Below the pieces are notes generated by a model, which was not told where the DNA came from, did not search any database, and worked only from the letters and a program-made list of their open reading frames with translations. From contig NZ_AFXZ01000051.1 in assembly GCF_000224335.1 (NCBI RefSeq), positions 1 to 61,999 of the forward strand: a stretch of 61,999 bases of DNA, read 5' to 3'. This document shows, in pieces, positions 18,404 to 47,977 of this stretch. How positions within the stretch are numbered: position 1 is the stretch's first letter; the number at the start of each line of letters is the position of its first letter. Both the position numbers and the translations under genes were made by a program. Origin of the DNA: Bizionia argentinensis JUB59 (lineage in GTDB: Bacteria > Bacteroidota > Bacteroidia > Flavobacteriales > Flavobacteriaceae).

Positions 18404-18446
18404 TAAAGATACTTTTAAAGCTTGTGTTTTGAAATGACATAGGTCA
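18404..18446 (-). promoter_or_regulatory. Stress-type promoter: palindrome plus -7 box (amidohydrolase)
   Basis: Palindrome tgacataggtca at 18435-18446 and, on the minus strand, TATCTTTA at 18404-18411. Centres are 33 bp apart. It sits ~100 bases upstream of the amidohydrolase start. One of six copies with identical spacing in this window. Confidence 0.75.
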
Positions 18447-18490
18447 GTTGAACATTAATTTATGAAAAAAAATGTTCTTAAAAAGCATAA

Positions 18491-18530
18491 AAAAATGGAT
18501 AATTGATTTTTAAATCAATTATCCATTTTT
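18491..18530 (-). terminator. Strong terminator after dps
   Basis: A 19-bp perfect inverted repeat (aaaaatggataattgattt and its complement) separated by two bases, flanked by A and T runs, 26 bases beyond the Dps stop codon. It isolates dps from the amidohydrolase promoter. Confidence 0.85.
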
Positions 18531-18555
18531 TTTAAAATTAGTGAAAATTCGAAGT

Positions 18556-19023
18556 TTATTTCAAATACGAATTTAACATCCAAAGGGTTTTTTCCGTTTC
18601 TGTAATGTAGTCACTCATTAAACTTACTGTACCTTCATCATTTGTATCGGCAGCAATAGTAAGAATATGACGCTCTTTTTCAACTAAAGTTCTAAAATTA
18701 TTAACTACAACCTCTACGCCTTTTGTACCGTCTGATACATTTTTTTCTTCTTTAATTTGTGTTGTTGCAAGATAATCTGTATAAGTGTGTAAAGGCTCGC
18801 CTTCTAATGTAAGAATACGCTCTGCAATTTCATCAATTTTTTCAAAAGCATCTTTATAAAGCTCTTCAAACTTATCGTGTAATTCAAAAAACTTTCTACC
18901 TTTAATGTTCCAATGTAAACCTCTTAAGTTTTGATAAAAGATTTCATAATCTGCCAATAAGATGTTTAATTCAACAACTAATGCTTCAGCTTTTTCACTA
19001 TCTAATCCTACTAAGTTTTTCAT
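18556..19023 (-). CDS. dps: Dps-family DNA-protecting ferritin
   Basis: A 155-residue Dps. The inter-subunit ferroxidase residues appear at H37 (GLHWNIKG), H49 (FELHDKF), D64 and E68 (EKIDEIAERI), at the family spacing. It oxidises and stores iron with peroxide and shields DNA. It is monocistronic: a strong terminator follows. It has its own promoter with a perfect TATCTTTG box and an upstream TGACC-tt-GGTCA palindrome, which suggests activation by a CRP/FNR-type regulator under stress. Confidence 0.95.
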   Translation of the reverse strand: MKNLVGLDSEKAEALVVELNILLADYEIFYQNLRGLHWNIKGRKFFELHDKFEELYKDAFEKIDEIAERILTLEGEPLHTYTDYLATTQIKEEKNVSDGTKGVEVVVNNFRTLVEKERHILTIAADTNDEGTVSLMSDYITETEKTLWMLNSYLK

Positions 19024-19050
19024 GTTATGTGTGTTTTTTAATTATTACTT

Positions 19051-19093
19051 CAAAGATATGATAATTGTCAAGTATTGGCAATGACCTTGGTCA
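19051..19093 (-). promoter_or_regulatory. Stress-type promoter: palindrome plus -7 box (dps)
   Basis: Perfect palindrome arms in tgaccttggtca (19082-19093) and perfect TATCTTTG on the minus strand (19051-19058), centres 33 bp apart, 28 bases upstream of the dps ATG. Best copy of the series. Confidence 0.85.
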
Positions 19094-19138
19094 GTTGCAG
19101 GTTGATTTTTGTCCCTGATTTGGATAAAAAAATCTTAT

Positions 19139-20215
19139 TTATTGCTTCATAACTACAGTTCTATGTGGAAATGGTATTTCAATTCCCTCATTATCGAAAC
19201 GTTTTTTTACTGTTTCAAAAACATCTCTTTTTATAGCAATAGATTTTGAATAGTTTTCAGCCCAAGCCCAAGCTCTTAAAACAACAGCAGAGTCACCTAA
19301 GTCTATAACCGCAGTTCTAATCATTGGTGCTCCATCTTGTTTTTGCTCTTCAGTTCGATTGTCTAAAATAAATGGATGCTTCTCACATTCTTCTCTTAGA
19401 ATCTGTTTTGCAAGGTCAACATCACTATCATATGAAATACCGACGACTATATACTCACAGCATTTTTGTTCATCTAAATCAAAATTTTCTATATTGGCTT
19501 TATTAATTACCGCATTAGGTATGATAACTCTTCTGTTCTGCCATGTACGTATTATAGTATGTCTCAAGGTAATATCTGTAACGCTGCCTGTTACAGAACC
19601 TCCAATAGAAACTATATCACCAACTCTAAACGGTTTAAAAGCTATAAGAAATAAGCCACCAATTACGTTAGACAAAGCTTCTTGAGAAGCAAGACCTACA
19701 ATAAGTGCTGCAACACCTGCGCCGCCTAAAGCGGTCTGTGCAACACCTTTGAGCGAAGGAAAGGCTAAAAGACACATCATAATACCAATAAAGTAAATGG
19801 AAACTAGAACTAAGTATCGTAAAAATTTAAAACTAGTTGGGTCTTGTTGTGTTGCTATCTTTTTTTTTATATCATTTTGAAACCACATATTTGCCGTAGT
19901 AGCAGCAATAATGGTGAGTGATAACACGACACCCAGATACAATGCTAATTTAAAATTATCTACCAAGACGCTCTGTTTGCTCTCGTCAACAACTAAATAG
20001 ATTAATGCTAATAAACCTAGTACAAGCCATAATGTATTAAGAATGCGTTTTAATAAACTTAATGGCTTTGATACTTCTCCAGGAAAACGTGCCTGTTGCT
20101 CTTTTTTGAGCCAACGATGTAGTTTTTTTGTCAAAAATCGTAATGTAAAGATTATTAAAATGACAATGACACCAAAGATGATATCAAATTTGTGAGCGTT
20201 TAAAAATTCTATCAT
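19139..20215 (-). CDS. MscS-family mechanosensitive channel
   Basis: A 358-residue small-conductance channel. There are about four N-terminal TM segments (10-30, 60-78, 90-110, 130-155). The pore helix follows, with the glycine/alanine pattern TALGGAGVAALIVGLASQEALSNVIGG (162-188), then the beta domain beginning FKPFRVGDIVSIGGSVTGSV. It relieves turgor under osmotic shock. A 6-7 unit TAA microsatellite lies upstream; no clear operon partner. Confidence 0.93.
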   Translation of the reverse strand: MIEFLNAHKFDIIFGVIVILIIFTLRFLTKKLHRWLKKEQQARFPGEVSKPLSLLKRILNTLWLVLGLLALIYLVVDESKQSVLVDNFKLALYLGVVLSLTIIAATTANMWFQNDIKKKIATQQDPTSFKFLRYLVLVSIYFIGIMMCLLAFPSLKGVAQTALGGAGVAALIVGLASQEALSNVIGGLFLIAFKPFRVGDIVSIGGSVTGSVTDITLRHTIIRTWQNRRVIIPNAVINKANIENFDLDEQKCCEYIVVGISYDSDVDLAKQILREECEKHPFILDNRTEEQKQDGAPMIRTAVIDLGDSAVVLRAWAWAENYSKSIAIKRDVFETVKKRFDNEGIEIPFPHRTVVMKQ

Positions 20216-20334
20216 AGCCTTTGGTTTTTTTAATTTTATAATAAACGTTAGTTATTTATCTTAACAAAAACACGCTTTAATTCCTGCAATAATATTTGCA
20301 ACAGGAAAAGCAGGTAAAATCAATCCGATTAACC

Positions 20335-20357
20335 TAATAATAATAATAATAATAATG
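20335..20357. repeat. TAA trinucleotide microsatellite
   Basis: Seven to eight uninterrupted TAA units in the 231-bp gap between the MscS gene and the cardiolipin synthase gene. It could vary in length. It is ~120 bases upstream of the MscS start, so length changes might affect its promoter. Nothing else is seen in the gap except an isolated FNR-like palindrome at 20433-20444. Confidence 0.85.
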
Positions 20358-20447
20358 CTGACACGTGCTTCTCCAATTATTTTTTGCACTCTTGCACACC
20401 TCCGAGACATTTAGCAATCCTTCATTAATCCATGATTTTAATCAATG

Positions 20448-21902
20448 TCATAAAAATGGCGATAATAATCTCACTAACCTTTCCCATAAATGAATATATT
20501 TTGGTCTGCTTAACCAAGATTCGACATCAATTAGTTCAGATACTTTTAAGTCGTCGTTAAATGCCTTGGTAAGCTGTGCTGCAATATTTTTACTATACAC
20601 TATGGCATTGACTTCAAAATTGAGGTCAAAACTTCTGTAGTCCATATTTGCGGAACCCACAATAGCTACATCATCATCAATTACCATTGTTTTTGCGTGA
20701 ACAAATCCTTTGTTATACTTATAAATCTTCGCTCCAACTTGAAGTAATTCTGTATAATAAGCGCTTGCAGCTGCGTTTACTATTTTAGAATCTGAAATGC
20801 CTGGAATTAATATCTTAACATCCAATCCGCCTTTAATGGCAATAATTAAAGCGTCCATTAAACTTTCATCTGGAATAAAATACGGACTTGTAATATATAT
20901 GCTTTCTTTGGCTGAATTAATAGCTTCTAAAAGTGAATAGAAAATAACTGGCTGCTTACTGTCTGGTCCTGAAGCTGCAATTTGTACCACTTCATTTATA
21001 ATATGCTCTTGTTCTGTTTTGTCAATAAAATAAGATTCAGAATAGGCAAAAGGTGTAGCACTACAAAAATTCCAATCTCCCATAAATAGGTATTGTAAAT
21101 AAGCTGTGGCCTGACCTTTGATCATTAAATGCGTGTCTCGCCAATACAAATGATTTTCTTTATGTAAATCGTTACGGTATTTATCGCTCATATTAATACC
21201 ACCTACAAAACCAACTTTACCGTCAATAACTATAATTTTTCTATGATTTCTGTAATTAAGTCGGTTAGCAAATGCATACCATCTTATTTTATAGAAAGGT
21301 GCCGTTTGGATTCCTGCATCTTCTAATTTATTAATGAAAGATTTTCCTAGATCATGACTTCCAAAATCGTCATACATAAAACGGACTTCAACACCTTCTT
21401 TTGATTTTTTAATAAGAATATCAGCCACTTGATTTCCTGTAATATCATCTTCATAAATATAATATTCAATATGAATGTGTGATGTTGCATTTTCAAGTTC
21501 TTTTAGTAATACGGCAAATTTTTCGTCTCCATTTATTAGCAGTTTTACCTCATTATTTGCTGTTAAAGGACTATAACCAGCACGACGAATAAACTCTATT
21601 AAAGTTTTACTTTTTTGCGGAATTAATCCGGAATTGCTTACAGCTTCAGAATACAAATTCACTTTGGTTGTAATGCGTTCTCGAAGTTGTTCATCTTCAA
21701 CTATCTTTTTAGAATATAGTTTTCGTTTTCGATAATTTACTCCAAAGGAAAAATAAAAAATCATACCAACAATAGGTAGAAAAACAATGAAAAGAATATA
21801 TGCCAAAGCTTTGGTGCTACTGCGTGTATCGTGCAACACTCTAGAGATAACTAAAATGATAATGAGGACGTAAAATGCTTCAGCTATTAAAACCCAATTC
21901 AT
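20448..21902 (-). CDS. cls: Cardiolipin synthase (phospholipase D superfamily)
   Basis: A 484-residue ClsA-type enzyme. Two N-terminal TM segments (3-20, 32-52) are followed by two PLD domains with HKD motifs: H220 in NHRKIIVID and H402/K404 in VHAKTMVID, each followed by a GG/GSANMD segment. It condenses two phosphatidylglycerols to cardiolipin at the inner membrane. Domain order and length are normal. It is separated from a pirin gene upstream by 34 bases on the same strand, so co-transcription is possible. Confidence 0.93.
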   Translation of the reverse strand: MNWVLIAEAFYVLIIILVISRVLHDTRSSTKALAYILFIVFLPIVGMIFYFSFGVNYRKRKLYSKKIVEDEQLRERITTKVNLYSEAVSNSGLIPQKSKTLIEFIRRAGYSPLTANNEVKLLINGDEKFAVLLKELENATSHIHIEYYIYEDDITGNQVADILIKKSKEGVEVRFMYDDFGSHDLGKSFINKLEDAGIQTAPFYKIRWYAFANRLNYRNHRKIIVIDGKVGFVGGINMSDKYRNDLHKENHLYWRDTHLMIKGQATAYLQYLFMGDWNFCSATPFAYSESYFIDKTEQEHIINEVVQIAASGPDSKQPVIFYSLLEAINSAKESIYITSPYFIPDESLMDALIIAIKGGLDVKILIPGISDSKIVNAAASAYYTELLQVGAKIYKYNKGFVHAKTMVIDDDVAIVGSANMDYRSFDLNFEVNAIVYSKNIAAQLTKAFNDDLKVSELIDVESWLSRPKYIHLWERLVRLLSPFL

Positions 21903-21936
21903 GCAATGCTTTTATGGTCGTATTAAATTACTAGAT

Positions 21937-22818
21937 TCACTTCCTTTTAAATGTTGGATAAGGAATGTATTCATCATCACCTTCTATTTTATCAAATGAT
22001 TGTGATACCCATTTTTGTTTCGCTTCGGCTATTAATTCTTTATCTGAAGACACAAAATTCCAATCAATAAATCGTTCTTCGGGAAAAGGTTCGCCTCCAA
22101 AAATATAAATGGTACTGTTTTCTTGAATTGTAAATTCACATAGTGAGCTGTCTTTTGCTACTAATAGTTGTTTAGGTTCGTATACATTTCCTTCACTTTC
22201 GATGGCGCCTTTAAGAATATATAAACCAGCTTCACCATAAAGGGCATCACCAATATTTACCACCTGTTTTGATGTGCTTTTAATTTCCAGCATAAATAGC
22301 TTACTAAAAACTGGGACTGCTGATTTTTTACCAAAGGCTTCTCCTGCTATTAACTTAAATTGTAAATCGCCTTCTGTCCAACTTGGAATTTGGTTTTCTT
22401 CAATATGAAAAAATTGCGGTTCCATTTGCTCTAAATGTTTTGGCAAAGCCACCCAAATTTGCAAACCATGCATAAATAATGGCGAGTCTCGCAAATGCTC
22501 TGGTGTACGTTCAGAATGTACAATTCCTTTTCCTGCTGTCATCCAATTGACTGCTCCCGGCTTTATTTCTACTTCGTTACCAAGCGTATCGCGATGCATA
22601 ATGCTGCCTTCAAATAAAAACGTAAGGGTTGAAAGTCCTATATGTGGATGCGGCATTACATCAAAATTTTCTCGCTCGCTTAACTTAACAGGACCCATGT
22701 GGTCTATGTAAATAAAAGGACCTACCATTCGTTTTTGACGAAATGGTAATAATCGTCCTACCATAAACTTCCCAATATTGGCAGCTCTCTCTTCAATAAT
22801 TAGTTTGATGTTTGACAT
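21937..22818 (-). CDS. Pirin-family cupin protein
   Basis: A 293-residue two-cupin protein. The N-terminal cupin carries the metal site VMPHPHIGLSTLTFLFEG with the later ERTPEHLR-type region. The C-terminal half is the PF05726-like pirin C domain (LYILKGAIE, IYIFGGEPF). Family members bind iron; some have quercetinase activity and others act as redox-sensitive regulators. It sits 17 bases from a small 102-residue protein gene upstream and before cls. Confidence 0.92.
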   Translation of the reverse strand: MSNIKLIIEERAANIGKFMVGRLLPFRQKRMVGPFIYIDHMGPVKLSERENFDVMPHPHIGLSTLTFLFEGSIMHRDTLGNEVEIKPGAVNWMTAGKGIVHSERTPEHLRDSPLFMHGLQIWVALPKHLEQMEPQFFHIEENQIPSWTEGDLQFKLIAGEAFGKKSAVPVFSKLFMLEIKSTSKQVVNIGDALYGEAGLYILKGAIESEGNVYEPKQLLVAKDSSLCEFTIQENSTIYIFGGEPFPEERFIDWNFVSSDKELIAEAKQKWVSQSFDKIEGDDEYIPYPTFKRK

Positions 22819-22835
22819 GATAACGATTAAGTTAA

Positions 22836-23144
22836 TTATAGATTATGTAATTTTTTAACCAATTCTCGAGAAACAGATGTTGAATACGCACTATAAGAAT
22901 TTACTAACAATCCTTTTATATCGTCTTTTTTTGAAGAAATTGCGTATAGAATACTTTCATTATCTACATCAGACATTTCTTGAAAACGGAATACGTCATC
23001 AACATCAAATTCATCTACTTGTAGCTCTATATCGTGATTTTTACACTCAATCGTATCATTATCATTGTTAGTGCTAAAGTTATGCGTGTAGCCTTTTTTT
23101 GTTAAGTCATTGATGGCTACTGATAAGCTTGTGTATTTTCCCAT
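22836..23144 (-). CDS. Small conserved acidic protein
   Basis: A 102-residue acidic protein of a type common in flavobacteria and often labelled phosphoribosylpyrophosphate synthetase, a label I do not trust: there is no PRPP-binding loop. Recognisable pattern: LSVAINDLTKKGYTHNF, DEFDVDDVFRFQEMSD, YAISSKKDDIKGLLVNSYSAY. No signal peptide or TM. It is followed by the pirin gene. Function unknown. Confidence 0.7.
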   Translation of the reverse strand: MGKYTSLSVAINDLTKKGYTHNFSTNNDNDTIECKNHDIELQVDEFDVDDVFRFQEMSDVDNESILYAISSKKDDIKGLLVNSYSAYSTSVSRELVKKLHNL

Positions 23145-23225
23145 TGTGTTATAGTTTTATATGTGTTATTCAGTTTTTATTTTAATTAGCTATTTTAATT
23201 CTTAAATATGATACTTTCATTTTTT

Positions 23226-23760
23226 GATAAGGTATAAGAGTTTCCTTAACCTCTAAGTTCGTAATTTTCATTTTTATACCAAATACCAGAGGCTGCTTTT
23301 TCTTCAACTAAGCCTATCTACTTGCCATCATTTAAATAGGCTTTAACAGTTCCTTCCGTATTATTAAAGGTAATATTTAATACATCGTCAATATCATTTT
23401 TTGCTTGTAAATTAGCGATATCATCAGACGTTCAAAAATTATTTCTCCATCTTTTCTTAGGGTTATATCGTTACCTTTTCCTCTAAATTCATGTTGGTTG
23501 ATTTTGTACCAAATTCCAGCAGCTGTTTTCTCTTCAACTAAATCTATCTGTTCGCCACCATCTAAATAAGCTTTAACAGTTCCTTTTGTATTATTAAATA
23601 CCAAGTCTAATTTTTTGCCATCTTTGTTAGTGGATGTGATTTTAGTAATAGCATCTGAAACATTCTAAACTGTTTCTGTGTTTGTCTTTTCTGCATCTTC
23701 TTTTTTTGTGGATTCTTTACAAAAACCTAAAATCAATACAGTTAATAATTAAAGTTTTTT
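23226..23760 (-). pseudogene. Decayed MliC-repeat lipoprotein
   Basis: Remnant of a paralogue of the intact MliC-repeat gene at 26361-27167. In minus-strand order it has a lipobox-like LILGFC, then a spacer ending in a stop (ETV-stop), one repeat (FNNTKGTVKAYLDGGEQIDL...GIWYK), a frame change after EIIFE, and a second repeat interrupted by stops in NDGK-stop and ELRG-stop. Reading frames must be joined at least twice. Only a 75-residue piece remains open. Function is presumably lost. Confidence 0.8.
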
Positions 23761-23767
23761 TATCGTT

Positions 23768-24187
23768 TTATTTTTTATTATATATTAAATTATCAATCGA
23801 AAATTTACCAGCACCTGCAATTAGAATAACCAAATAAATTGAAGCATAAAGCAATGGTAATTCCTGTTTTGCAAATGGATCAGGTACATGAATTATTAAT
23901 ACTGCAACTAACATTGTAATTAGCAAAGGAATTGCCGCAAAACGTGTAGCTAAACCTAAAATTAAGAGTGCGGCACAGACCACTTCTGCAAATACAGCAA
24001 GCGCTAAAGATGTTGTTGCGCCAAATCCTATTGGATCTGGAAATTGAATTGGGTCGCTTCCAAACAATGGTGCGATTTTACCTATGCCATGTGTTAACAT
24101 TAAAGCACCACCCGCCATACGAAGTATTAGTAACGAAAGGTTGATGTTTTTAGCATAAAAACCAGGGTTTAGCATTTTTTTTATCAT
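23768..24187 (-). CDS. DoxX-family membrane protein
   Basis: A 139-residue protein with four TM helices and the DoxX pattern: LLILRMAGGALMLTHGIGKI at the N-terminus, AVFAEVVCAALLILGLATRFAAIP in the middle, and a final LPLLYASIYLVILIAGAGKFSID. DoxX proteins are poorly understood inner-membrane proteins linked to redox stress. It ends 8 bases from the decayed MliC pseudogene. Confidence 0.9.
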   Translation of the reverse strand: MIKKMLNPGFYAKNINLSLLILRMAGGALMLTHGIGKIAPLFGSDPIQFPDPIGFGATTSLALAVFAEVVCAALLILGLATRFAAIPLLITMLVAVLIIHVPDPFAKQELPLLYASIYLVILIAGAGKFSIDNLIYNKK

Positions 24188-24355
24188 AAGTTTATTATTA
24201 TTTATTAGTCCTTGTAGAACTATTTTATGCTGTTAATTTTTCATGTAAAAACTAATTCTAATTAGCCATTCTAAAGCGTTAAAAAAATAAATTTTTTTAA
24301 CTCTTTCTTCTATAATTTCGCTTGTTGTTTTACATACTATTTTTTCTGTACTAAA

Positions 24356-24982
24356 TCATTGTGATGCTGACTTTTCGGTTTTCCAAATCCTTGGCAAATG
24401 CCAGTTGAATTTTACGGATAATAATCGAAATACAACTATAGTAGCCAGACAAATAATTTCGACAGGCATTATGGGTACATTCAACTTTAGTAAAAGGAAA
24501 AAAACGGCACCTCCTAAAATGCATGTGGTTGCATATATTTCCTTCTGAAAAATAAGCGGAATGTTACTTAAAGAAATATCTCTAATTACACCTCCAAAAC
24601 AAGCAGTAATTGTTCCAAGAGCAATGCAACTTATAGGATGCATATCTAGCGAAATTCCGGTTTGAATTCCAACTACGGTAAAAAAACCCAGCCCTATAGA
24701 ATCGAAAAACAACAACACATTATGGAAGTTTTTAATAGCCGATTTAAATAGTAATCCTACGATGGTACTCATTAGAACTACGAATCCTGCGCTAAATTCC
24801 AACAACCATTTAACAGGAACTTCTCCAATTAAAACATCGCGTAAAGTTCCGCCACCCAAAGCCGTAATAAAAGCAATAATAAATGTACCAAAAACATCTA
24901 ACTTTTTTTCCATTGCGGCAAATGTACCTGCAATGCCAAATGCTGCTGTTCCTATTATCTCAATGGTTTTAAGGGATTCCAT
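24356..24982 (-). CDS. TRIC/UPF0126-family cation channel protein
   Basis: A 208-residue protein of seven short TM segments in two internally repeated halves. Each carries a GGG-T-RD signature: FITALGGGTLRDVLIG (37-52) and ITACFGGVIRDISL (near 124-137). These are the hallmarks of prokaryotic trimeric intracellular cation channel homologues. Expected role: cation (mainly K+) conductance in the inner membrane. It stands alone between DoxX and an alcohol dehydrogenase. Confidence 0.9.
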   Translation of the reverse strand: MESLKTIEIIGTAAFGIAGTFAAMEKKLDVFGTFIIAFITALGGGTLRDVLIGEVPVKWLLEFSAGFVVLMSTIVGLLFKSAIKNFHNVLLFFDSIGLGFFTVVGIQTGISLDMHPISCIALGTITACFGGVIRDISLSNIPLIFQKEIYATTCILGGAVFFLLLKLNVPIMPVEIICLATIVVFRLLSVKFNWHLPRIWKTEKSASQ

Positions 24983-28212: not shown

Positions 28213-28244
28213 AGTGGTATGTTTTATTACAAGGTAATATTAGC

Positions 28245-37181: not shown

Positions 37182-38030
37182 TTATACACGATGCCTCAAT
37201 ACAAGTACCGGAACATGTGATTGGTATCCTAAATCTTTGACCAATGGTTTAGACACTAATCTACTGAAAAAATTGCTTTTTTGATTTATAAAAGCAACCA
37301 TATCGCTTTCATGTCTTTCTATAAAAGCGTTAATTCCTTCAAGAACCGTCATACCATTTAATTCATGGAAACTATGGTCAACATCTTTAAAAAGCGTTAC
37401 TAACAATTTTTTGTTATCCTGTTGTTCCTTTGTTAGCTTATCCGATTCTTTGATATGAATCACCTGTATATCTGTGCCATGCGTACCGGCAATATTAATC
37501 AGGTATTTGAGCTCTCTTCGTTTAAAAGGTGTTTTATAATCCGTAGGAAAAACTATTTTTCTTGGTGTTTTAAAAACGACATCTTCAGGTATCGCCAAAA
37601 CAGGGCAAGCTTTACTATTTTCCATCACATTAATGGTATTCATACCAAAAGCAACTGGTCTTGAACTGGTCATACCTTTTGCTCCCATAATGATGATATC
37701 TATATCGTGTTTTGCTACAACATCATCTACAGCTTCAAGCAAGGCATTGTTTGCAAAAATTGTATTATATGTATGTATTGGATCGTTACTTTGCAGATTA
37801 AGTACTTCTATTAAACTTTTAAATTGTTCTTCCGTTTTAGGCTCTTGATTGTCAAAAGTTCGCCGACCAAAATCCGTGTAATTGTGGCTATCTATAGAGT
37901 AACCATCTGCATAATAGGTGTTCAAAAAGTAAAACGTGCATTTACGGTCTGCATAGAGGTCTAAAGCATAGCGTGCTGCATTAAGAGCTTCTTTTGAAAA
38001 ATCAGTAAGTATTAAGATTCTTTTGTCCAT
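37182..38030 (-). CDS. Double-domain universal stress protein
   Basis: A 282-residue protein of two UspA domains (1-145, 150-282). The first opens KRILILTDFSKEALNAARYALDLYADRKC and ends DIIIMGAKGMTSSRPVAFGMNTINVMENS, close to the ATP-binding G-x2-G-x9-G pattern. The second ends LVSKPLVKDLGYQSHVPVLVL without it. It has its own palindrome/-7 box promoter unit at 38053-38095. Confidence 0.92.
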   Translation of the reverse strand: MDKRILILTDFSKEALNAARYALDLYADRKCTFYFLNTYYADGYSIDSHNYTDFGRRTFDNQEPKTEEQFKSLIEVLNLQSNDPIHTYNTIFANNALLEAVDDVVAKHDIDIIIMGAKGMTSSRPVAFGMNTINVMENSKACPVLAIPEDVVFKTPRKIVFPTDYKTPFKRRELKYLINIAGTHGTDIQVIHIKESDKLTKEQQDNKKLLVTLFKDVDHSFHELNGMTVLEGINAFIERHESDMVAFINQKSNFFSRLVSKPLVKDLGYQSHVPVLVLRHRV

Positions 38031-38052: not shown

Positions 38053-38095
38053 TAAAATTAGTCAACTACCATGACTATTGAAATGACCTCGGTCA
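38053..38095 (-). promoter_or_regulatory. Stress-type promoter: palindrome plus -7 box (UspA)
   Basis: tgacctcggtca (38084-38095) with perfect arms, and minus-strand TAATTTTA (38053-38060), centres 33 bp apart, 23 bases before the UspA ATG. Confidence 0.75.
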
Positions 38096-38309: not shown

Positions 38310-39569
38310 TTACGGTGGTGTGCCTTCTCCATTTGAAACAACTGCATCAATTTGTACCAAAGCGTTCATAGGCAAAGCTGAAACACCAATTATTGTTCTT
38401 GCAGGAAGATCGCTTTTGAAAAATGTGGTAAATACTTCATTCAAAACATCGATATCCTTGATGTTTTTAAGTTGTATGTTTACTTTAACCACATCATCCA
38501 TAACGTGATCTATACTTTCCACGATAGCCTTAATGTTTTTTAAGCTTTGATTTACCTGTTCTTTTATTCCACCAGCAATCATTTTATCGGTTTTTGGTTC
38601 TAGTGGTAACTGGCCTGAAATATGGTTGTAGTGCGAAAAAGCTACAGTTTGGGTAGAGAACGTGTTTTTAGGTGCGTCCTGCGTATTGTTTGCGCGGATG
38701 ACAATCCCATGTCTGTCTGCAACGGCTTGTGGTGGTGTGCCATCTCCGTGAGAGATCACGGCATCAATTTGAATTAAGGCGTCCATAGGCAAACCTGAAG
38801 CTATGACCACGGTACGTGCAGGTACATAAGCCGCTGTTCTGGCAATTGCAGAGTCTGGAAAAAATGAGGAATACACTTCATTTACAGCGTCTATATCCGA
38901 GGGGTTTTTAAGAAAAATTGTTGTTTTAACAATATCGTCAAAAGGAACGTCTATGCTTTGTAAAATTGCCTTGATATTTTTTAGGCACTGTTCAGCTTGC
39001 TTCTTCACACCACCAATTACAATTTTATCCGATTTTGGATCGATAGGTAACTGCGCCGAAATATTGTTGTAATGGGAAAATGCTACCGTTTGAGCAGATA
39101 CTTTACTAATTGGCGCATTTTGAGTATTCTTCACAACTTTCTTAAGCGCTGTTGGTTGTTGCGGATGCGTACCAACACCGTTTGAAATTACAGCATCCAT
39201 TTGTATCAATGCGCCGTCCATCGGTAAAGCATCGACCGCCATGATTGTTCGTGTAGGAAAATAGTTTTGAAAGACCGACGTATAAACTTCATCTAAGGCA
39301 TCAATATCTGATATGTTTTTAATGTATATCGTAATTTTAATGACATCGTTCATACTTTGATCGATACCTTCTACAATTGCTCTCAAGTTATTTAAGCATT
39401 GCTTAGCTTGTTCCGCTATGGTATTTCCTGCAATTTCACCTGTTCTTGGATTGATAGGTAATTGAGCTGAAATATTATTGTAATGCGAAAAGGCTACAGA
39501 TTGTGTTGCAAAAGAACTTTTTGGCGCATTTTCAGTGTTTCTTGAAACTTTAATGATATCATTACCCAT
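38310..39569 (-). CDS. Triple-domain RidA (YjgF/UK114) protein
   Basis: A 419-residue fusion of three complete RidA domains (~10-125, ~145-265, ~285-419). Each repeats the same landmarks: VAFSHYNNISAQLP or VAFSHYNHISGQLP, KAIVESIDHVMDDVVK-type, and the active-site arginine segment PTRTIMAV, PARTVVIA, PARTIIGV, followed by LIQ(I/M)DAV. RidA normally is a single ~130-residue domain that trimerises and hydrolyses reactive enamines/imines; here one chain could form a pseudo-trimer. The usual late glutamate is aspartate in all three. It has its own palindrome promoter unit. Confidence 0.9.
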   Translation of the reverse strand: MGNDIIKVSRNTENAPKSSFATQSVAFSHYNNISAQLPINPRTGEIAGNTIAEQAKQCLNNLRAIVEGIDQSMNDVIKITIYIKNISDIDALDEVYTSVFQNYFPTRTIMAVDALPMDGALIQMDAVISNGVGTHPQQPTALKKVVKNTQNAPISKVSAQTVAFSHYNNISAQLPIDPKSDKIVIGGVKKQAEQCLKNIKAILQSIDVPFDDIVKTTIFLKNPSDIDAVNEVYSSFFPDSAIARTAAYVPARTVVIASGLPMDALIQIDAVISHGDGTPPQAVADRHGIVIRANNTQDAPKNTFSTQTVAFSHYNHISGQLPLEPKTDKMIAGGIKEQVNQSLKNIKAIVESIDHVMDDVVKVNIQLKNIKDIDVLNEVFTTFFKSDLPARTIIGVSALPMNALVQIDAVVSNGEGTPP

Positions 39570-39656: not shown

Positions 39657-39699
39657 CAAAGTTAACATGCTTATTCAACTCTTGCTATGATCCAGATCA
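39657..39699 (-). promoter_or_regulatory. Stress-type promoter: palindrome plus -7 box (triple RidA)
   Basis: tgatccagatca (39688-39699) and a perfect minus-strand TAACTTTG (39657-39664), centres 33 bp apart, 88 bases upstream of the RidA start. The remainder of the 39570-39898 gap shows nothing recognisable. Confidence 0.75.
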
Positions 39700-40859: not shown

Positions 40860-41604
40860 TTATCTTAATTTTATATCCCCACCATCTGCCATAAGTGTTT
40901 GACCCGTCATATACTGACTGTCTTCACTCAATAAAAAGGCTACTATAGGTGCAACGTCTTTTTGTGGGTCTCCAAAACGATGCATTGGGTTTTTACTAAT
41001 AATTTCTTCATATTGTTCTGGGAAATTTTCTTTCCATTGTTTTACACCTTCGGTAAATGCAAGCGGACAAACTATGTTTACTCTAATGCCATCTTCTGCC
41101 CATTCATTAGCTGCTACACGGGACAAACCTCGAATCGCTTCTTTGGCTGCTGCATAGCTTCCTTGATTTTTTTGACCTAGTAACCCTGCACCAGAACCAA
41201 AATTTACGATGGACCCGTTAGTTTTCTTTAATTCTTTATAGGCAGCTTTCATAAAATTTAAGGTACCTTTTAAACCTGTGTTCATAGACAAAGCCCAATC
41301 GTCTTCAGTAAGTTCTAGTATTGGTTTTTGACGAGATGCGTGTGCATTATTAACCAGACTTGTTAATTTTCCGAATTTAGAAATAGCAAGTTTAACCGCT
41401 TCTTTTGCAACTGTTTCTTTAGAAATATCTCCTTTTAAGAATGCAATTTGCTCTGGATTGGATGCTACTTTTTGCTTACCTGCTTCTTCGTTTAGGTCAA
41501 CAGCAACAACACAAGCTCCTCTTTCCGTTAATTCAGTAGTCATGGCTCCACCAATTCCTGCCGCCTCCTGTTATTATTGTTATTTTATCTTTTAAATTTT
41601 TCAT
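40860..41604 (-). pseudogene. SDR oxidoreductase, frameshifted at the nucleotide-binding loop
   Basis: From 41543 the frame encodes a good SDR: VVAVDLNEEAG, NNAHAS (NNAG variant), SIVNFGSGAG, catalytic YAAAKEAIRG (Tyr-x3-Lys) and PLAFTEGV. Its normal N-terminus lies in another frame from ATG 41604 (MKNLKDKITIITGG). One surplus G in ggaggcggcaggaatt separates them; without it the loop reads ITGGAGIGGAM. As it stands the cofactor loop is lost. A C-terminal TGQTLMADGGDIKL is intact. Confidence 0.75.
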
Positions 41605-41646
41605 AGTATTTATTGTATTAAAATTCCAAATATGCATTTCACCTAT

Positions 41647-42093
41647 TTATTTGATTGGTAAAGCCATAACTATTCGGTCTTCATTATCTAAAAAATAGTT
41701 ATCTAAAATTTCCTCTCCTTCAAAACCCAAATCTTTATATATTTTTATAGCAGAAACATTATCAGAATAGACTGTTAAGGCAATTTCTTTAGGGTTTTTA
41801 GCTTTTAGAACTTCAATCAAACCTTCTGTTAGTTTTTTTCCTAAACCTTTCCCTCTACCTTTTTGATGAACACCTAAAGATAATATCCAGCCTTTTTGCT
41901 CATTTGTACTTAAACCACCTATAATATAGCCAAAAATTTTGTCATTTTCTTTTGCTACCAAAAAGTAATCTCTAGAAATATCGAATAATTGACGTATTAC
42001 AAAAGCTGGGTAACTGTCTGTATTGAATACGTGTTGCTCAATGGCAATAATAGTTTCTAAATCTTCTAATTTTACTTTATGTATTGTTATCAT
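41647..42093 (-). CDS. GNAT acetyltransferase (RimI-like)
   Basis: A 148-residue N-acetyltransferase: VFNTDSYPAFVIRQLFDIS, then the acetyl-CoA loop LSLGVHQKGRGKGLGKKLTEGL (Q/R-x-x-G-x-G), and a C-terminal YSDNVSAIKIYKDLGFEGEEIL. Pattern and size fit the RimI group or related protein acetyltransferases. It is 9 bp upstream of HdeD on the same strand. Confidence 0.9.
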   Translation of the reverse strand: MITIHKVKLEDLETIIAIEQHVFNTDSYPAFVIRQLFDISRDYFLVAKENDKIFGYIIGGLSTNEQKGWILSLGVHQKGRGKGLGKKLTEGLIEVLKAKNPKEIALTVYSDNVSAIKIYKDLGFEGEEILDNYFLDNEDRIVMALPIK

Positions 42094-42102
42094 TATGTTT
42101 TT

Positions 42103-42741
42103 TTAATCATCCCATTCGTTACGTATTTCTAACATAAGGTCGTCATAACGTTTTACTAATTCTGCTGATATCTTTTTTGAGGATTTATGCAACTTTCGCA
42201 ATTGAAATGAAAGAAAAACACTGAAAAGCCCAGCGAAAAGGAAATTTATAGCCACTAATACTACCAGACTCAATCCTGCAAAAAGCGGATTCCAAATAAG
42301 TATGAATGATACGATGGTACCAATTGTACCTAAAATTAAAAGTCCTCCCCAGTTTTTGCTTCCATATTTTTTAACATCCATTGCAAAACCAATGGTAGAT
42401 ATAGAACGAAACATAATTACAAAACCAATATAAAAAGCTAATGCTGTAATGGACAATTCAGGTTTAAGTAATAATAAAACCCCAACTATTAACGTAAGAA
42501 TACCGAAGCCTAAAGACCAACCCCAATTATCCAGGCGATCTCTATTTATCAGCGCAAAAACACTTTCTGAAATGCCACTTAATAAAAATGATAATGCAAA
42601 GAGTAAGGACAGTGTTAACAACGAGCCTACTGGCGAAGAAAAGGCTACAATGCTTACGATTATAAAAAATATACCTACAAGTAAAGGAATGTACCAATGT
42701 TTAACGGTGCTTTTAATCGTTTTTAAAAATGATGTTTCCAT
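42103..42741 (-). CDS. HdeD-family (DUF308) membrane protein
   Basis: A 212-residue protein with six TM helices in three hairpins: WYIPLLVGIFFIIVSIVAF, LSLLFALSFLLSGISE, WGWSLGFGILTLIVGVLLLLKP and so on, the DUF308/HdeD arrangement. HdeD is linked to acid resistance at high density in E. coli. It lies between a UspA gene and a GNAT gene, forming a possible stress operon. Confidence 0.9.
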   Translation of the reverse strand: METSFLKTIKSTVKHWYIPLLVGIFFIIVSIVAFSSPVGSLLTLSLLFALSFLLSGISESVFALINRDRLDNWGWSLGFGILTLIVGVLLLLKPELSITALAFYIGFVIMFRSISTIGFAMDVKKYGSKNWGGLLILGTIGTIVSFILIWNPLFAGLSLVVLVAINFLFAGLFSVFLSFQLRKLHKSSKKISAELVKRYDDLMLEIRNEWDD

Positions 42742-42766
42742 AGTTTTGTTTTTTACAGGTTAATAA

Positions 42767-43585
42767 TTATAATTTAAAGGTCATTACTGGTCGTCTTGAA
42801 TGGTTTGCAAGATCTTCTGAGATACTTCCTTTAATTAAATGATTTAATCCTTTTCTCGCATTAGTAATCACTACAATTGCATCAGCGTTTGTTTCATCTG
42901 CATATTGAATGATTCCGTCCTCAATAGTATAACCCGCAATAAATTCTACTTTATTTGATCCGCCTGCATCAGCAAATTCTTTTACCTTTTTATTGAAGGT
43001 TTTAGAGTTTATAAATCCGTTATTAGGTCTATTCACATAAACCAAGTCCACTTTGCTTCCTAGTTTTGAAAGTTTGTTTTCTGCTCTCTTATAGGCATCT
43101 ACACTTTCTATACTCATATCTGTTGCTAAAACCACTTGGTTTAGGCTAAAGTTTTCTGGTTTATTTTTAACAATTAATACAGGTGTGCTACTATTTCGTA
43201 CCATTTTTTCTGCATTAGATCCAGCAAATATGCCATCTTGAAGCGTGATGCCTTGAGAACCCATAATTATCAAATCTGCATCTAACTCTTTAGCAACAGC
43301 ATCTACCTCTTGATATACCTTGTGCTTTTTAATCACTGGAATCACGGTAACGCCTTCTAAATAGTCTTTGTTCAAAAACTCTTCAAATCGTTTTTTTGCA
43401 AGCGACAACATAAAAAACATTTCGTTTTTACTGTCATTTTGCGAGATAGAGAACAATGCATCAGAAACCTCTAACATATGTAGCACGTGTAAGGTGGCGT
43501 TATGCTTTTTGGCAAGTATAGCTCCTGTTTCTAGAGCAAATTCTGATTGTTCTGAAAAATCAATAGGTATAATTATATCTTTCAT
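42767..43585 (-). CDS. Double-domain universal stress protein
   Basis: A 272-residue tandem UspA protein. The first domain ends LIIMGSQGITLQDGIFAGSNAEKM, a complete G-x2-G-x9-GS ATP-binding motif. The second ends AIVVITNARKGLNHLIKGSISEDLANHS, G-spaced similarly. Both start with an IIPIDFS or VLATDMS strand. It is 25 bp upstream of HdeD. The palindrome promoter unit found at the other UspA gene is not visible here. Confidence 0.93.
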   Translation of the reverse strand: MKDIIIPIDFSEQSEFALETGAILAKKHNATLHVLHMLEVSDALFSISQNDSKNEMFFMLSLAKKRFEEFLNKDYLEGVTVIPVIKKHKVYQEVDAVAKELDADLIIMGSQGITLQDGIFAGSNAEKMVRNSSTPVLIVKNKPENFSLNQVVLATDMSIESVDAYKRAENKLSKLGSKVDLVYVNRPNNGFINSKTFNKKVKEFADAGGSNKVEFIAGYTIEDGIIQYADETNADAIVVITNARKGLNHLIKGSISEDLANHSRRPVMTFKL

Positions 43586-43630
43586 AATTTATAAATTAAC
43601 AAGGTTAGTTTTTATCTTTTATTTGTTTTA

Positions 43631-44691
43631 CTATTTACTAAGATCAACCAGTATTTTTACTTCCGACGGATCTTTTATTAATGCTTCGAAGCCTTCATAT
43701 ACAATATTTTCTAACGGTATTAAGTTTGTGATTAATTTTTCTACTGGTAATCTTCCACTATTAATCAAAGCAATAACTTCAGGAAAAATATTTCGATATC
43801 CAATAATTCCTTTAATTGTTAATTATCTTAAAGCTTGGTCTAAAGCATCGTGCGACACATTTTTAGAAAACAGCGCTACTAATACTGCTATACCACCATT
43901 ACGCAAACTCTGTATTCCTGTATCAAAGGAAGATTGCACACCTGCCGCATCTATAAATACATCAACACCATTTTCTGTCATTTCCTTTATTTTTTTAGGA
44001 ATGTCTTTTTCACGGGCGTCAAAAGTTTTTGTTGCTCCAATTTCTTTTGCTTTTGCCAATCTACTTTCAGAAATATCTGTAATAAAAACTTGAGAAGCAC
44101 CACTCGCTAAAGCCACTTGAAGTGTAAGCAATCCAATAGGGCCAGCTCCTGTAATTAAAACTGTGTCTCCCATTTTCATTCCTCTTTGCTGTAAGCCATA
44201 AGCAGCTACCGCATCAGGTTCAACAATTACACCTTGCTCAAACGTCATATTATCTGGCTTTTTACGGGTCATATATTCTTCAACAACCCCATATTTGGCA
44301 AAAGCACCATTGGCAGTAAGACCAACAAAACCTAATGGCTCTGAAAAGTTATATTCTCCTTTTGGTACAAATGGGCTTTCTGGATTTCTAAGAATAGGCT
44401 CCACAGTAACGCGGTCTCCTTTTTTTACATTTGTAACATTTTTCCTGTATTAACCACAACTCCTGAAAATTCGTGACCAAGTGTAGTTACTCCTTTATAA
44501 CCATTTAATGGATACGGCTCACCTCCATGAATTAATTGTGGGCAGTGATTATACTCATGTAGATCTGAACCACAAACACCTGTAAACTTAACTTCTATTT
44601 TTACCTGATTATCATTTGGTGTTGGAACATTAGTTTCCTATACTCTTATATCTTTCGCTGCATAACAGCGCGCTGCTTTCATCTTTTCCAT
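43631..44691 (-). pseudogene. Broken zinc-type alcohol dehydrogenase
   Basis: Full-length relic of a paralogue of the 25218-26282 dehydrogenase. From the ATG at 44691 it reads MEKMKAARCYAAKDIRV, then a TAG where the intact copy has GTAGAA-type sequence. There is a frameshift after LGHEFSGVV, an open stretch from 44404 to 43823 (GAGPIGLLTLQVALASGA), a TAA after LDQALR, and the usual C-terminus PSEVKILVDLSK to 43631. At least three lesions. The structural-zinc lobe lacks cysteines, as in the intact copy. Confidence 0.85.
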
Positions 44692-44743
44692 AATCCTTCT
44701 ATTTAATATGTTATTATTTTATTTTTGAGATTTAATCCGTGAT

Positions 44744-45556
44744 TTATCCCATTTTTTTGATATTATGAATAACTCCGCCATCTATCAAAATATCTGTACT
44801 GTTAATAAAACGTGCTGCATCACTTGCTAAAAAATGGATGACATCTACAACATCTTTAGGTTGACCATTACGTTTTAAAGGCGTAGCTTGTTTAATCATT
44901 TCCATGCGTTCCGGATGTTCTTCTGCAGCTTTTAATGCCATTGGTGTTTCAATAACTCCTGGTGAAACAGATACGATTCTTGCGCCTTTTTCTCCCCATT
45001 TATTAGCATTTTTTATCGTTAACAATTGCACACCTCGTTTTGCGAAATTGTACATTAAGTCTGAATCGTTATTTACAAATTTGCTCACAATATCAAAAGA
45101 TTCTTGTGCTTGTGGATTTATAAGTGCCTCATCATAATCTTTATTTGCAGGAACTGTATGAGCCATCATAGACGATAATAAAATTGCTACTGAATCTTTT
45201 TCTGCTAGCTCATAAAATGCATCAACTAAAAGATCGGTTGCAACTAAGTCTATGTTGAATACTTTTTTCAAGTCTTTCACAGTTCCGCTAACTCCAGCTG
45301 TGTGAATGAATGCTTTTAAGGACCCATTATCTGCTACAAATTTTGTTAGTTTATCTATACCTTTTTTATCTGTGATATCACAAGCAATTCCTGCAACGTC
45401 AAAACCTTCTTTTGAAAATTTTGCTACGGTTTCATCCACTTTGTCTTGCGAATAATCTGTAAGTATTATAGGTTGGTTTTTAAAAGCTCTCGCACAAGCC
45501 TGACCTATGCCTCCTGCTCCTCCTGTAATAACTATTAGGTTTTTTTGTACTTTCAT
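44744..45556 (-). CDS. SDR-family oxidoreductase
   Basis: A 270-residue short-chain dehydrogenase. Cofactor loop VITGGAGGIGQACA (residues 9-22), NTAG-equivalent IHTAGVSG, SSMMAHTV (Ser), a non-standard catalytic tyrosine region (LMYNFAKRGVQLL, Tyr-x3-Lys), then SVSPGVIETPM and INSTDILIDGG. NAD(P)-dependent; substrate unknown. It is intact, in contrast to the frameshifted SDR at 40860. Confidence 0.9.
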   Translation of the reverse strand: MKVQKNLIVITGGAGGIGQACARAFKNQPIILTDYSQDKVDETVAKFSKEGFDVAGIACDITDKKGIDKLTKFVADNGSLKAFIHTAGVSGTVKDLKKVFNIDLVATDLLVDAFYELAEKDSVAILLSSMMAHTVPANKDYDEALINPQAQESFDIVSKFVNNDSDLMYNFAKRGVQLLTIKNANKWGEKGARIVSVSPGVIETPMALKAAEEHPERMEMIKQATPLKRNGQPKDVVDVIHFLASDAARFINSTDILIDGGVIHNIKKMG

Positions 45557-45580
45557 TTTACGTATCTTTAAATTAATTTT

Positions 45581-46654
45581 TTAATATCTCGTTATGGCTC
45601 CAAAGCCATTAAATTTTGACAATTCTCCTTTAGGAAGAAAGACTACATCGCCACCAAAACTCATATTTAAATCAATAAGTTCATCATAGATATCATCAAT
45701 GACATCGGTTTTTGTTCGGTCTTCTTCTTTAACATACCTAATTTCATCATCTTCCATAACTGCTGGCTGAAATAAACCTTTTTCTATAAAAAGCGTTTGT
45801 ATTCTGCCTTCTGTAATGGCTCTCCGGATTTCGTTAGTATCACTTAAAAATTTGTTTTCGGTTACTGCTTTGAGCAATTCTGCCTTACGTGCTACATTTT
45901 TTGCTATATTATGTGCTTCTACAATCCCCCAGGCCTCAGTAACAATAACGTGGTCTATTTCTTCGATTCTGCTATTGTTTAAAAAGGATGTAAAAATGCT
46001 CTCTTTTTCATCAGCTATTTTTAAATACTCATGATAGTTTTCTTCAACCGTAACAATTAATACTGGCAAAGGATTTTCTTTTCTAATGGCATTAACTTCT
46101 TTATCTACTTGATTAAAAAATTCTGCCATTAAGCTTCTCTTTTTTGAAGCCACATCAAATTGTGTCTTATTTTTACCGAAAAACAACGTGTTCTCGATAG
46201 GGAATGGTGATTTAAATTCCGTAACCAATCTATCATTTAAAGCTTCGACTAATCGAACTTTATCTTGGTTTAGAACCAGTATATAATAATTAGACTCACT
46301 ATGCATCGCTCTTACTAAATCTCTTGTAGAAAAGGAAGAATCAATCATTACACGATCTGAAACTTGAATAGGTAGTCGTGTAAATTTAGCAATGTCTTCG
46401 TTCACAAAAAGGATTAAGCTCTCTAAATTATGAGCGTGATCTATTTGGTCCGCGAGAGATTCTAATTTTTCTAACAAGGCTGTCGCCTCACGTTTAGTAG
46501 TATCTGCCAGAAGCCTTGTTTCAACCTCTTTGATATGGTTTTTAAGTGTTATTTCATCTTTTAAGCGTTCTGGAAGTGTTCTGTGTGTATTCATTATTAT
46601 TGTGATACAGTTATCAGAACTTATATTCTTTAATTTTTTTAATGTGGTGTTCAT
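45581..46654 (-). CDS. BaeRF-family protein (bacterial archaeo-eukaryotic release factor-like)
   Basis: A 357-residue protein with no TM or signal. Pattern: CITIIMNTHRTLPERLKDEITLK, LFVNEDIAKFTRLPIQV, YYILVLNQDKVRLVEALND, and a C-terminal L7Ae-like part with AVTENKFLSDTNEIRRAITEGRIQTLFIEKG. This matches the BaeRF3-type group, predicted to act on ribosomes like eRF1. It lacks the GGQ peptide-release motif in anything I can see. Its 24-bp distance to the downstream SDR gene suggests co-transcription. Confidence 0.75.
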   Translation of the reverse strand: MNTTLKKLKNISSDNCITIIMNTHRTLPERLKDEITLKNHIKEVETRLLADTTKREATALLEKLESLADQIDHAHNLESLILFVNEDIAKFTRLPIQVSDRVMIDSSFSTRDLVRAMHSESNYYILVLNQDKVRLVEALNDRLVTEFKSPFPIENTLFFGKNKTQFDVASKKRSLMAEFFNQVDKEVNAIRKENPLPVLIVTVEENYHEYLKIADEKESIFTSFLNNSRIEEIDHVIVTEAWGIVEAHNIAKNVARKAELLKAVTENKFLSDTNEIRRAITEGRIQTLFIEKGLFQPAVMEDDEIRYVKEEDRTKTDVIDDIYDELIDLNMSFGGDVVFLPKGELSKFNGFGAITRY

Positions 46655-46758
46655 AATCTATGATTTTAAATTTACAATAAAAAGTTGGACGATTTATTTA
46701 GAATGGATTGGAATAGAGGCCAATGCTTTTAACTTTTCTTAATAAAGAATACGTAAAA

Positions 46759-47208
46759 TTAACCCCTATCGATATCTAAAACTGTACCTGCTTCGCTATA
46801 AGTCAATTCTATTTCTTCTGTCCAACCAGATTTTGAAACTTCAACTTCATAGGTGGTTACTCCATTTTGAAACATAGATTTAGCTGAATCAATTCTATAA
46901 TCGGAATAATCTCTTTTAAGAGCCTCGACTAGGGGCTTTGGTAAATTTGCTTTAACAATTTCGGCTTCTACTTTTACACGGTCTCCCTGTTTATTGAAGT
47001 AAATTTTATGCTCCAGTAAATTGTTTTTGAACTTTACTTTATAATCTTCGTTACTTCTTTCCCATATTATATCTTTAGCTTCAGGGTAAACTTCTAAAAG
47101 ACTTTTAGTAAAACTTTGTGGAACATCTGTCTTTTTTAAATCTTGGGCATTCATTGTTCCGGTAAAAAGTAAAATTATTCCTACTGTAATCGCTTTGAGT
47201 GTTTTCAT
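46759..47208 (-). CDS. Periplasmic PepSY-like domain protein
   Basis: A 149-residue exported protein (signal peptide 1-21, LLFTGTMNAQ). It has two tandem PepSY-like (PF11396-type) repeats, each with the pattern YPEAKDIIWERSNEDYKVKF and YSDYRIDSAKSMFQNGVTTYEVEV. Such proteins are common in Bacteroidota envelopes, role unknown. It has a perfect promoter unit with the regulon palindrome, so it is expected to be a member of the same stress response. Confidence 0.8.
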   Translation of the reverse strand: MKTLKAITVGIILLFTGTMNAQDLKKTDVPQSFTKSLLEVYPEAKDIIWERSNEDYKVKFKNNLLEHKIYFNKQGDRVKVEAEIVKANLPKPLVEALKRDYSDYRIDSAKSMFQNGVTTYEVEVSKSGWTEEIELTYSEAGTVLDIDRG

Positions 47209-47246
47209 TGAATTATAATTTTATGTTGTTCATATTAATAACACAT

Positions 47247-47289
47247 CAAAGATACCTATGATATAAAGTCTACCAAATGACCTAAGTCA
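47247..47289 (-). promoter_or_regulatory. Stress-type promoter: palindrome plus -7 box (PepSY-like)
   Basis: tgacctaagtca (47278-47289) and perfect minus-strand TATCTTTG (47247-47254), centres 33 bp apart, 39 bases before the ATG. Confidence 0.85.
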
Positions 47290-47415
47290 GTTCGCCTACT
47301 CATTAATTAAAAGACTATGGATTAGAACGTTATATTTGATAAAAAAGTAAAGGCTACATCATACTAATAAGAAAAATGAGTCTTTAAAATAATAAATAGG
47401 CTAATAGTAAAAAAA

Positions 47416-47907
47416 TTAATTTGCTTCTACCAAGGCATTCACCGTTTCTAAGTTACGCAACTCTACTCGTATGATAAGGCAAAATTTCCCATCTTTTACC
47501 GTCGTTAAATAGTTTTTAGTTTCTCTTTCATTGAACCCTAATTCTCTAAAAATACCTAAAAGACCAGCAGGTAATGCAGCGAGTTTTCTGTTGTCCACTT
47601 CGGTAAGAAATATTGATGTTAAATGACCTGCTATAAATAATTTACCGTATTCTGAATGGTTAAAAAAACCAAACTTAAAGGTGTTACTACTAAAGCCTCT
47701 TAATTCCTCTTTTATATTGGCAAAGATTGTTTTAAGTTCTATTTTAGTCCTTGAATTAAGTGAAGTGTATTGGCCTAATACGGACACCTGCGGTTTATCA
47801 TTGCCTATTAATGCCATAGTATTTACTACAGTTTCTATTTGAGATATGCTTGAATAAACCCTTGTAATAAATATTTTTCGAAGGTTTTTATCTTCTATAT
47901 ATGGCAT
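47416..47907 (-). CDS. Unrecognised small protein, probable stress protein
   Basis: A 163-residue protein from ATG 47907 (MPYIEDKNLRKIFITRVYSS). An ATG at 47946 is in frame but lies within or upstream of the promoter box, so the shorter start is preferred. The text VSVLGQYTSLNS, FGFFNHSEYGKLFIAGHLTS and LAALPAGLLGIFRELGF is weakly reminiscent of general stress protein 17M/YflT-like alpha-beta domains with a glycine-rich insert. I would not name it. It is expected to be induced with Dps and UspA because of its promoter. Confidence 0.65.
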   Translation of the reverse strand: MPYIEDKNLRKIFITRVYSSISQIETVVNTMALIGNDKPQVSVLGQYTSLNSRTKIELKTIFANIKEELRGFSSNTFKFGFFNHSEYGKLFIAGHLTSIFLTEVDNRKLAALPAGLLGIFRELGFNERETKNYLTTVKDGKFCLIIRVELRNLETVNALVEAN

Positions 47908-47934
47908 TCTGTAACTATTTAATTTAGTGTTGTG

Positions 47935-47977
47935 CCAAATTATCAAGACTGTACGTTTTTGGCAATGATCGAAGTCA
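47935..47977 (-). promoter_or_regulatory. Stress-type promoter: palindrome plus -7 box (47416 gene)
   Basis: tgatcgaagtca (47966-47977) and minus-strand TAATTTGG (47935-47942, one mismatch to TAnnTTTG), centres 33 bp apart. It places transcription start near 47928, so translation should begin at 47907. Confidence 0.65.

Follow-up and report, generated by a model that had tools for sequence, protein, structure and literature searches.

A 12-bp palindrome stands at one fixed distance from a Bacteroidota -7 box in seven promoters of the 61,999-nucleotide stretch of Bizionia argentinensis JUB59 analysed here (contig NZ_AFXZ01000051.1, positions 1 to 61,999, termed the window), and the favoured candidate for its activator is a response regulator with a CRP-type output domain encoded at 48209-49282 on the minus strand (the 48209 protein). 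In the mechanism that we regard as probable, the PAS-type histidine kinase encoded at 49545-51959 would phosphorylate the receiver of the 48209 protein, which would enable its FNR/CRP-type dimer to bind palindromes of the TGAYC type whose centres lie 33 bp upstream of the -7 box. The dimer bound at about -40, a class II position, would activate RNA polymerase at the seven window promoters and at some elsewhere, and the regulon would protect cells in low-energy or low-oxygen stress, with hypoxia as a presumed signal, like the DosR/OsdR dormancy regulons. The proposal builds on the sites, their rigid spacing, their recurrence in relatives, their clustering round the regulator gene, a preference in the core bases and the pairing of kinase and regulator genes, all of which are read directly from the DNA.

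Six of the sites had been listed in a sequence-only reading of positions 18,404 to 47,977, which claimed a constant 33 bp between the centres of palindrome and box. All six palindromes are present, each with exactly 23 bp between palindrome and box (equal to 33 bp centre to centre, termed gap 23), oriented toward a minus-strand gene, and the gene calls of that reading were borne out as well. Site 1 (18404-18446) consists of TGACCTATGTCA (18435-18446) and box TATCTTTA (18404-18411) and lies upstream of an amidohydrolase gene (17060-18307) whose product is cytosine-deaminase-like, just under the NCBIfam cut-off. Site 2 (19051-19093), with TGACCAAGGTCA (19082-19093) and box TATCTTTG (19051-19058), precedes the gene of a Dps/ferritin-like protein (18556-19023), and site 3 (38053-38095), with TGACCGAGGTCA (38084-38095) and box TAATTTTA (38053-38060), that of a UspA-family protein (37182-38030). 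The triple-RidA gene (38310-39569) follows site 4 (39657-39699; TGATCTGGATCA at 39688-39699, box TAACTTTG at 39657-39664), the PepSY-like gene (46759-47208) follows site 5 (47247-47289; TGACTTAGGTCA at 47278-47289, box TATCTTTG again at 47247-47254), and a gene of unknown function (47416-47907) follows site 6 (47935-47977; TGACTTCGATCA at 47966-47977, box TAATTTGG at 47935-47942). The count of six was incomplete, as a seventh site on the plus strand at 8288-8330, outside the range of the sequence-only reading, combines TGACCTACATCA (8288-8299) with box TAATTTTG (8323-8330) at the same gap upstream of an OEP/TolC-family gene (8372-9793, plus strand). The consensus TGAYCTNRGTCA given for the six fits only in part, matching exactly at 19082, 38084 and 47278 and requiring one mismatch at the other three.

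The looser palindrome TGAYNNNNRTCA matches the window 11 times, where 3.9 matches are expected, and seven of the 11 have a gap-23 box. A matrix built from 72 sites, all from genomes other than that of B. argentinensis, recovered exactly the seven sites (scores 32.2, 33.0, 30.9, 30.4, 32.7, 19.3 and 30.9 for sites 1 to 7) and nothing above 8 in the rest of the window, while 20 sequences generated from a first-order Markov chain scored at most 14.5. Another UspA gene (42767-43585) was considered as a target and rejected, the near-palindrome at 43635 having no gap-23 box by eye and no matrix match.

The genome scan by which the sequence-only reading proposed to check its regulon returned gap 23 far above chance frequency, so the idea stood. 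In the B. argentinensis genome (3.28 Mb, 70 contigs), the palindrome was followed by TAnnTTTG at a gap of 8 to 38 bp in 26 cases, 14 of them at gap 23 (binomial P ~9e-15 if gaps are uniform), and a reversed control pattern gave 9 matches in all over the same gaps. With the window removed, 10 of 22 matches still fell at gap 23 (P ~6e-10). The same distance recurs in 40 regions of 20 kb (800 kb) around CRP-output response regulators of relatives, in which 428 palindromes were accompanied by 54 TAnnTTTG boxes at gap 23 and by 0-3 for each of the remaining gaps between 0 and 59; relaxing the box to TAnnTTTR raised the gap-23 count to 104. Together, the window and the 40 regions hold 142 gap-23 sites, of which 135 precede an open reading frame (ORF), mostly 15-45 bp after the box.

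Bacteroidota promoters are of the -7/-33 type, and FNR and CRP of Escherichia coli act at -41.5 at class II promoters; the 33 bp to the centre of the -7 box, which puts the palindrome at about -40, is consistent with a class II centre near -41.5. The rigid gap and its recurrence in relatives strongly support a CRP/FNR-type activator predicted to act at the class II position, as had been proposed for the six sites, and the conservation of one promoter at 10 of 11 homologous genes adds to this.

That promoter belongs to the unknown gene behind site 6. The ORF as called, with 176 residues from a TTG at 47946, runs through the promoter box at 47935-47942; the likely start is the ATG at 47907, giving 163 residues. 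The gene comes after the regulator gene in the window and in Formosa and Polaribacter, and a gap-23 site stands directly before 10 of 11 homologous ORFs in the relatives fetched, the eleventh (L089) not being listed with a site. When the ten promoters were aligned with that of the window, the palindrome ends and the TA and TT of the box were common to all and little else was; the promoters aligned were chosen for having the site, so the invariant TGA, TCA, TA and TT columns are partly built in and 10/11 is the unbiased count. The protein has no Pfam or NCBIfam match (searched with the longer start), and its structure model, of moderate confidence (pLDDT 78.7), found no fold match in the PDB at E 0.001 or better.

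A second palindrome position appears in many Bacteroidota outside the Flavobacteriaceae that have orthologues of the 48209 protein (group 1, defined below). Across 80 named loci, 45 boxes were counted at gap 23 and 36 at gap 45, and in loci L141-L208 without L155, a second TGA..TCA element (at least 5/6 letters matching) accompanies 41 of 50 gap-45 palindromes, placed exactly 22 bp downstream and hence at gap 23, with 0-2 at other offsets. Tandem sites (for example L154:11073-11140 and L187:8502-8570) occur in 27 of the 69 loci L140-L208 and in 0 of the 11 loci L129-L139; in 30 of the 69, neither kind of site lies within the DNA examined. A corresponding upstream site in Flavobacteriaceae was considered and found unsupported, since only 5 of the 142 gap-23 sites score at least 5/6 at 22 bp upstream and other offsets give 0-5. 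The pattern suggests a stack of two dimers in many other Bacteroidota and a single dimer in Flavobacteriaceae.

The 48209 protein joins a receiver with its phosphoacceptor Asp, a cyclic-nucleotide-binding fold and a Crp-type helix-turn-helix (HTH_Crp_2) in one chain. Its proposed partner, the sensor kinase at 49545-51959 on the minus strand, has PAS domains and weak similarity to FixL chains, and in 11 of 11 named loci (L129-L139) the gene immediately upstream of the regulator encodes a homologue of this kinase. In some relatives, the kinase gene itself stands behind a gap-23 site, as at L130:7412 (kinase frame from about 7470) and also in L093, L096, L098 and L103, which suggests autoregulation there. 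No N-terminal cysteine cluster of the FNR type was found in the 48209 protein, whose only cysteines, residues 30 and 52, lie in the receiver domain; the CRP-like part thus has none, and Fe-S sensing of the FNR kind is not indicated. By eye, Q and D occupy the positions of E72 and S83, which we take to be the cAMP pocket residues of CRP.

Homologues of the regulator were sorted into groups by reading a listing of full-length matches. Group 1 comprises full-length orthologues of the 48209 protein (50-57% identity), present in 7 of 99 sampled genomes of the same family, and group 2 a second set of CRP-type response regulators (38-46% identity), present in 40 of the 99. A tree separates the two groups with support and places the window protein beside Formosa and Polaribacter; the exceptions are L054, which is labelled group 2 and placed elsewhere, and the unlabelled L141 and L155, which fall among group 1. 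Among eight aligned group-1 proteins, the phosphoacceptor region CDIMMP is invariant and the recognition helix is GTATETAIR in seven and GAAKETAIR in the remaining one, while group-2 helices are mostly of the form G(I/M)A-E(T/S)LIR. In three genomes, regulators of both groups lie ~25 kb apart in one stress-gene island (L093/L094 in G037, L098/L099 in G011, L095/L097 in G056).

The B. argentinensis genome has four matches to the Crp helix-turn-helix model, one of them, at C58:94240, an FNR-like protein, unknown to the sequence-only reading, with an N-terminal CxxC and the helix GTATESAIR, against GTATETAIR in the 48209 protein. At the gene of this regulator (L028 and L020), only 9 bp separate an upstream TGATTTATGTCA palindrome from a TATTTTTG box, an arrangement that autorepression would fit. 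Ten gap-23 sites elsewhere in the genome have AT-rich cores, with TGAYA in 11 of 20 half-sites, and the genes after them include those for cytochrome c, a HemN-like radical SAM protein, a hibernation factor, OmpW, a copper-oxidase/cytochrome protein, Usp and RibB; one gap-24 site precedes ccoS/ccoN-like genes. We infer that the gap-23 genes outside the window form the regulon of the FNR-like protein. Gap 23 is thus common to both regulators, and the gap alone cannot identify which of them acts.

The core bases separate the sets. For this comparison, only gap-23 rows were kept (109 of 149 for the group-1 genomes), and a palindrome with a box on each side was counted twice. TGAYC makes up 10 of 14 half-sites in the window, a set that includes weaker boxes (TTTA, TTGG), and 1 of 20 in the rest of the genome, where, as in all genome-wide sets, TAnnTTTG was required. 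In islands of relatives, the fraction is 14/36 with group 1 only, 3/36 with group 2 only and an intermediate 0.26 with both; far from either regulator in seven group-1 genomes, it is 9/112. In ten genomes chosen by hand as lacking both groups, it is 8/188 (94 gap-23 cores among the matches listed), and the difference between these and the group-1-only islands gives a Fisher P of 9e-8. Loci L129-L139 reach 44/90; this set admitted weaker boxes, contributed to the matrix training and counts the G054 genome again as L138. Within 40 kb of the group-1 regulator, where 2.1 are expected, the seven group-1 genomes have 35 of their 109 gap-23 sites. Since the window and group-1-adjacent sites favour TGAYC and the others TGAYA, the 48209 protein is favoured as the putative regulator of the window sites. 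The earlier naming of this protein as the candidate, made without knowledge of the FNR-like rival, is favoured, short of proof, by the clustering of the sites round its orthologues and by the TGAYC core that goes with them.

Several observations weigh against this assignment and against a fixed regulon. The matrix scan of the window found no site before the window's own kinase or regulator gene, and gap-23 sites are present in genomes without a CRP-output response regulator. As many as 17 of the 35 clustered sites are also within 40 kb of a group-2 paralogue. Gap-23 sites of the strict form TGACYNNRGTCA occur in only six of eight group-1 genomes, in 9 of 34 with group 2 only and also in 4 of 58 with neither, and one stands elsewhere in the B. 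argentinensis genome, at the RibB gene (L014). The recognition helix of the FNR-like protein is nearly identical, so its cross-binding at sites of the 48209 protein is likely, and the difference between TGAYC and TGAYA cores is without a proven structural cause. Homologues of the other window targets are few in the fetched loci, and most of them are without a site (OEP 1/3, RidA 0/3, PepSY 0/1; Dps 1/1), and the amidohydrolase has no homologue there. Only Usp, for which 32 of 76 homologous ORFs there carry a site, and the unknown protein clearly recur as targets, so that regulon membership looks fluid. An extended motif, TGACCRCRGTCACTGCA, was observed at gap 23 in G010, G042 and G051; G010 and G051, which have neither group, are two of the four exceptions just given for the strict form.

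An alternative that we hold to be somewhat improbable is that the two regulators would work on overlapping promoters, with the response regulator prevailing at TGAYC cores and the FNR-like protein at TGAYA cores, so that the island would join a phosphorelay to a second redox signal. The shared position, the common TGAY-N4-RTCA frame and the similar helices all suit such an arrangement, as do the intermediate cores of islands with both group 1 and group 2. It is unlikely that the FNR-like protein acts in place of the response regulator, the window sites being merely GC-richer members of one FNR regulon. Its helix would allow this, the genes at the AT-core sites of the genome (cytochrome c, HemN-like, hibernation, OmpW, Usp and copper-oxidase/cytochrome) would suit an FNR if the link drawn above is right, and gap-23 sites exist where the response regulator does not; however, the core split between the window and the rest of the genome is repeated in relatives and tracks the position of the group-1 regulator gene, and this comparison lowers the probability of the FNR-like protein as sole regulator.

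Activation by the 48209 protein, rather than repression, is likewise the predicted outcome. A site this close to the core promoter on its upstream side might equally block polymerase, yet a repressor operator overlapping the promoter seems very improbable, because a 23-bp distance with almost no scatter is what class II contact needs and not what a roadblock needs, and because other Bacteroidota often have the second site added upstream at an offset of exactly 22 bp. A chance alignment of AT-rich boxes, conceivable in that TAnnTTTG is not rare in a genome of 33% GC, has been rejected as practically negligible in view of the gap-23 counts in the genome, the 40 regions and the 80 loci and of the recovery of the sites by the cross-genome matrix.

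What such a regulon would contain was read from the 135 of 142 gap-23 sites, the window's seven included, that are followed by an ORF of at least 70 residues (seven sites without one were dropped); the scan takes the first ORF after the site, which may be the wrong gene, and mixes group-1 and group-2 islands. Usp is the commonest family (27), followed by Hsp20 (8), patatin (5), PAS kinases (4-5), PEP synthase/PPDK (4), ribosome hibernation factor (4), MlaE (4) and PfkB (2); COX1 (3) and FixO (3), pointing to a cbb3 oxidase, are possibly the same fused proteins. Within the window, only Usp and Dps are targets of the kinds known from dormancy regulons. The stress island of the window also holds a baeRF family 3 protein (bacterial archaeo-eukaryotic release factor-like) at 45581-46654.

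Compared with class II CRP/FNR promoters of E. coli, the system is alike in a palindrome of TGA half-sites at a fixed class II-like distance and, as in the Crp family, in a recognition helix of the E..xR type; it differs by the Bacteroidota -7 box and by the receiver domain on the proposed activator, and many other Bacteroidota differ further by the second site 22 bp upstream. FixL-FixJ-FixK of rhizobia likewise sets a kinase, a receiver and a CRP/FNR-type activator over cbb3 oxidase and stress genes, but in the present system a single protein combines the receiver with the FNR-type activator. In the DosR/DevR/OsdR dormancy systems, a heme kinase senses hypoxia or NO. The output domain of DosR is of the NarL/LuxR class, whereas that of the 48209 protein is of the CRP/FNR type, and motif and phylum differ too. 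Otherwise, DosR/DevR of Mycobacterium and OsdR of Streptomyces, as far as the consulted parts of the sources describe them, are alike in having a two-component regulator within a usp island and a core regulon round the regulator gene. According to the same parts, the OsdR and DevR regulons contain universal stress proteins and heat-shock proteins, and the OsdR table has a pyruvate phosphate dikinase near the regulator (PMC5069765, PMC10034137); a Usp-rich regulon with a small heat-shock protein and energy-metabolism targets is also found across the scanned targets. The gene content may therefore be described as resembling a DosR/OsdR dormancy regulon placed under a CRP-type output domain.

MalR-like regulators of Bacteroidetes are CRP/FNR members in Flavobacteriales too, and carbon sensing is predicted for these homologues; the consulted part of the article mentions neither a receiver domain nor a gap-23 motif for them (PMC8510549). 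No CRP-output response regulator with this motif in Bacteroidota was found among the listed titles and abstract beginnings of the open-access literature, which is weak evidence of absence, and the main text of one article on F. psychrophilum (PMC9723704) contains none of 'crp', 'fnr' and 'palindrom'.

In its widest form, a view to which we give even chances, the finding would be a phylum-wide Bacteroidota counterpart of the DosR dormancy system, with the receiver fused to an FNR-type activator. It would share its promoter position with the genomic FNR-like protein, kept apart from it by a difference of one or two core bases (TGAYC versus TGAYA), and would act through single class II sites in Flavobacteriaceae and through two dimers stacked 22 bp apart in many other Bacteroidota. 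Little has been written in the open-access literature, as far as titles and abstract beginnings go, on how Flavobacteriaceae regulate stress and low-oxygen survival, and here seven mostly stress-related window genes, with similar genes in many relatives, carry the same site at one distance. With a rigid distance from motif to -7 box, targets can be predicted far more specifically in any member of the family that has been sequenced, and the way in which activators contact polymerase at promoters of Bacteroidota can be tested directly. If true, the convergence on DosR/OsdR gene content would mean that one survival programme has been rebuilt on a different output domain.

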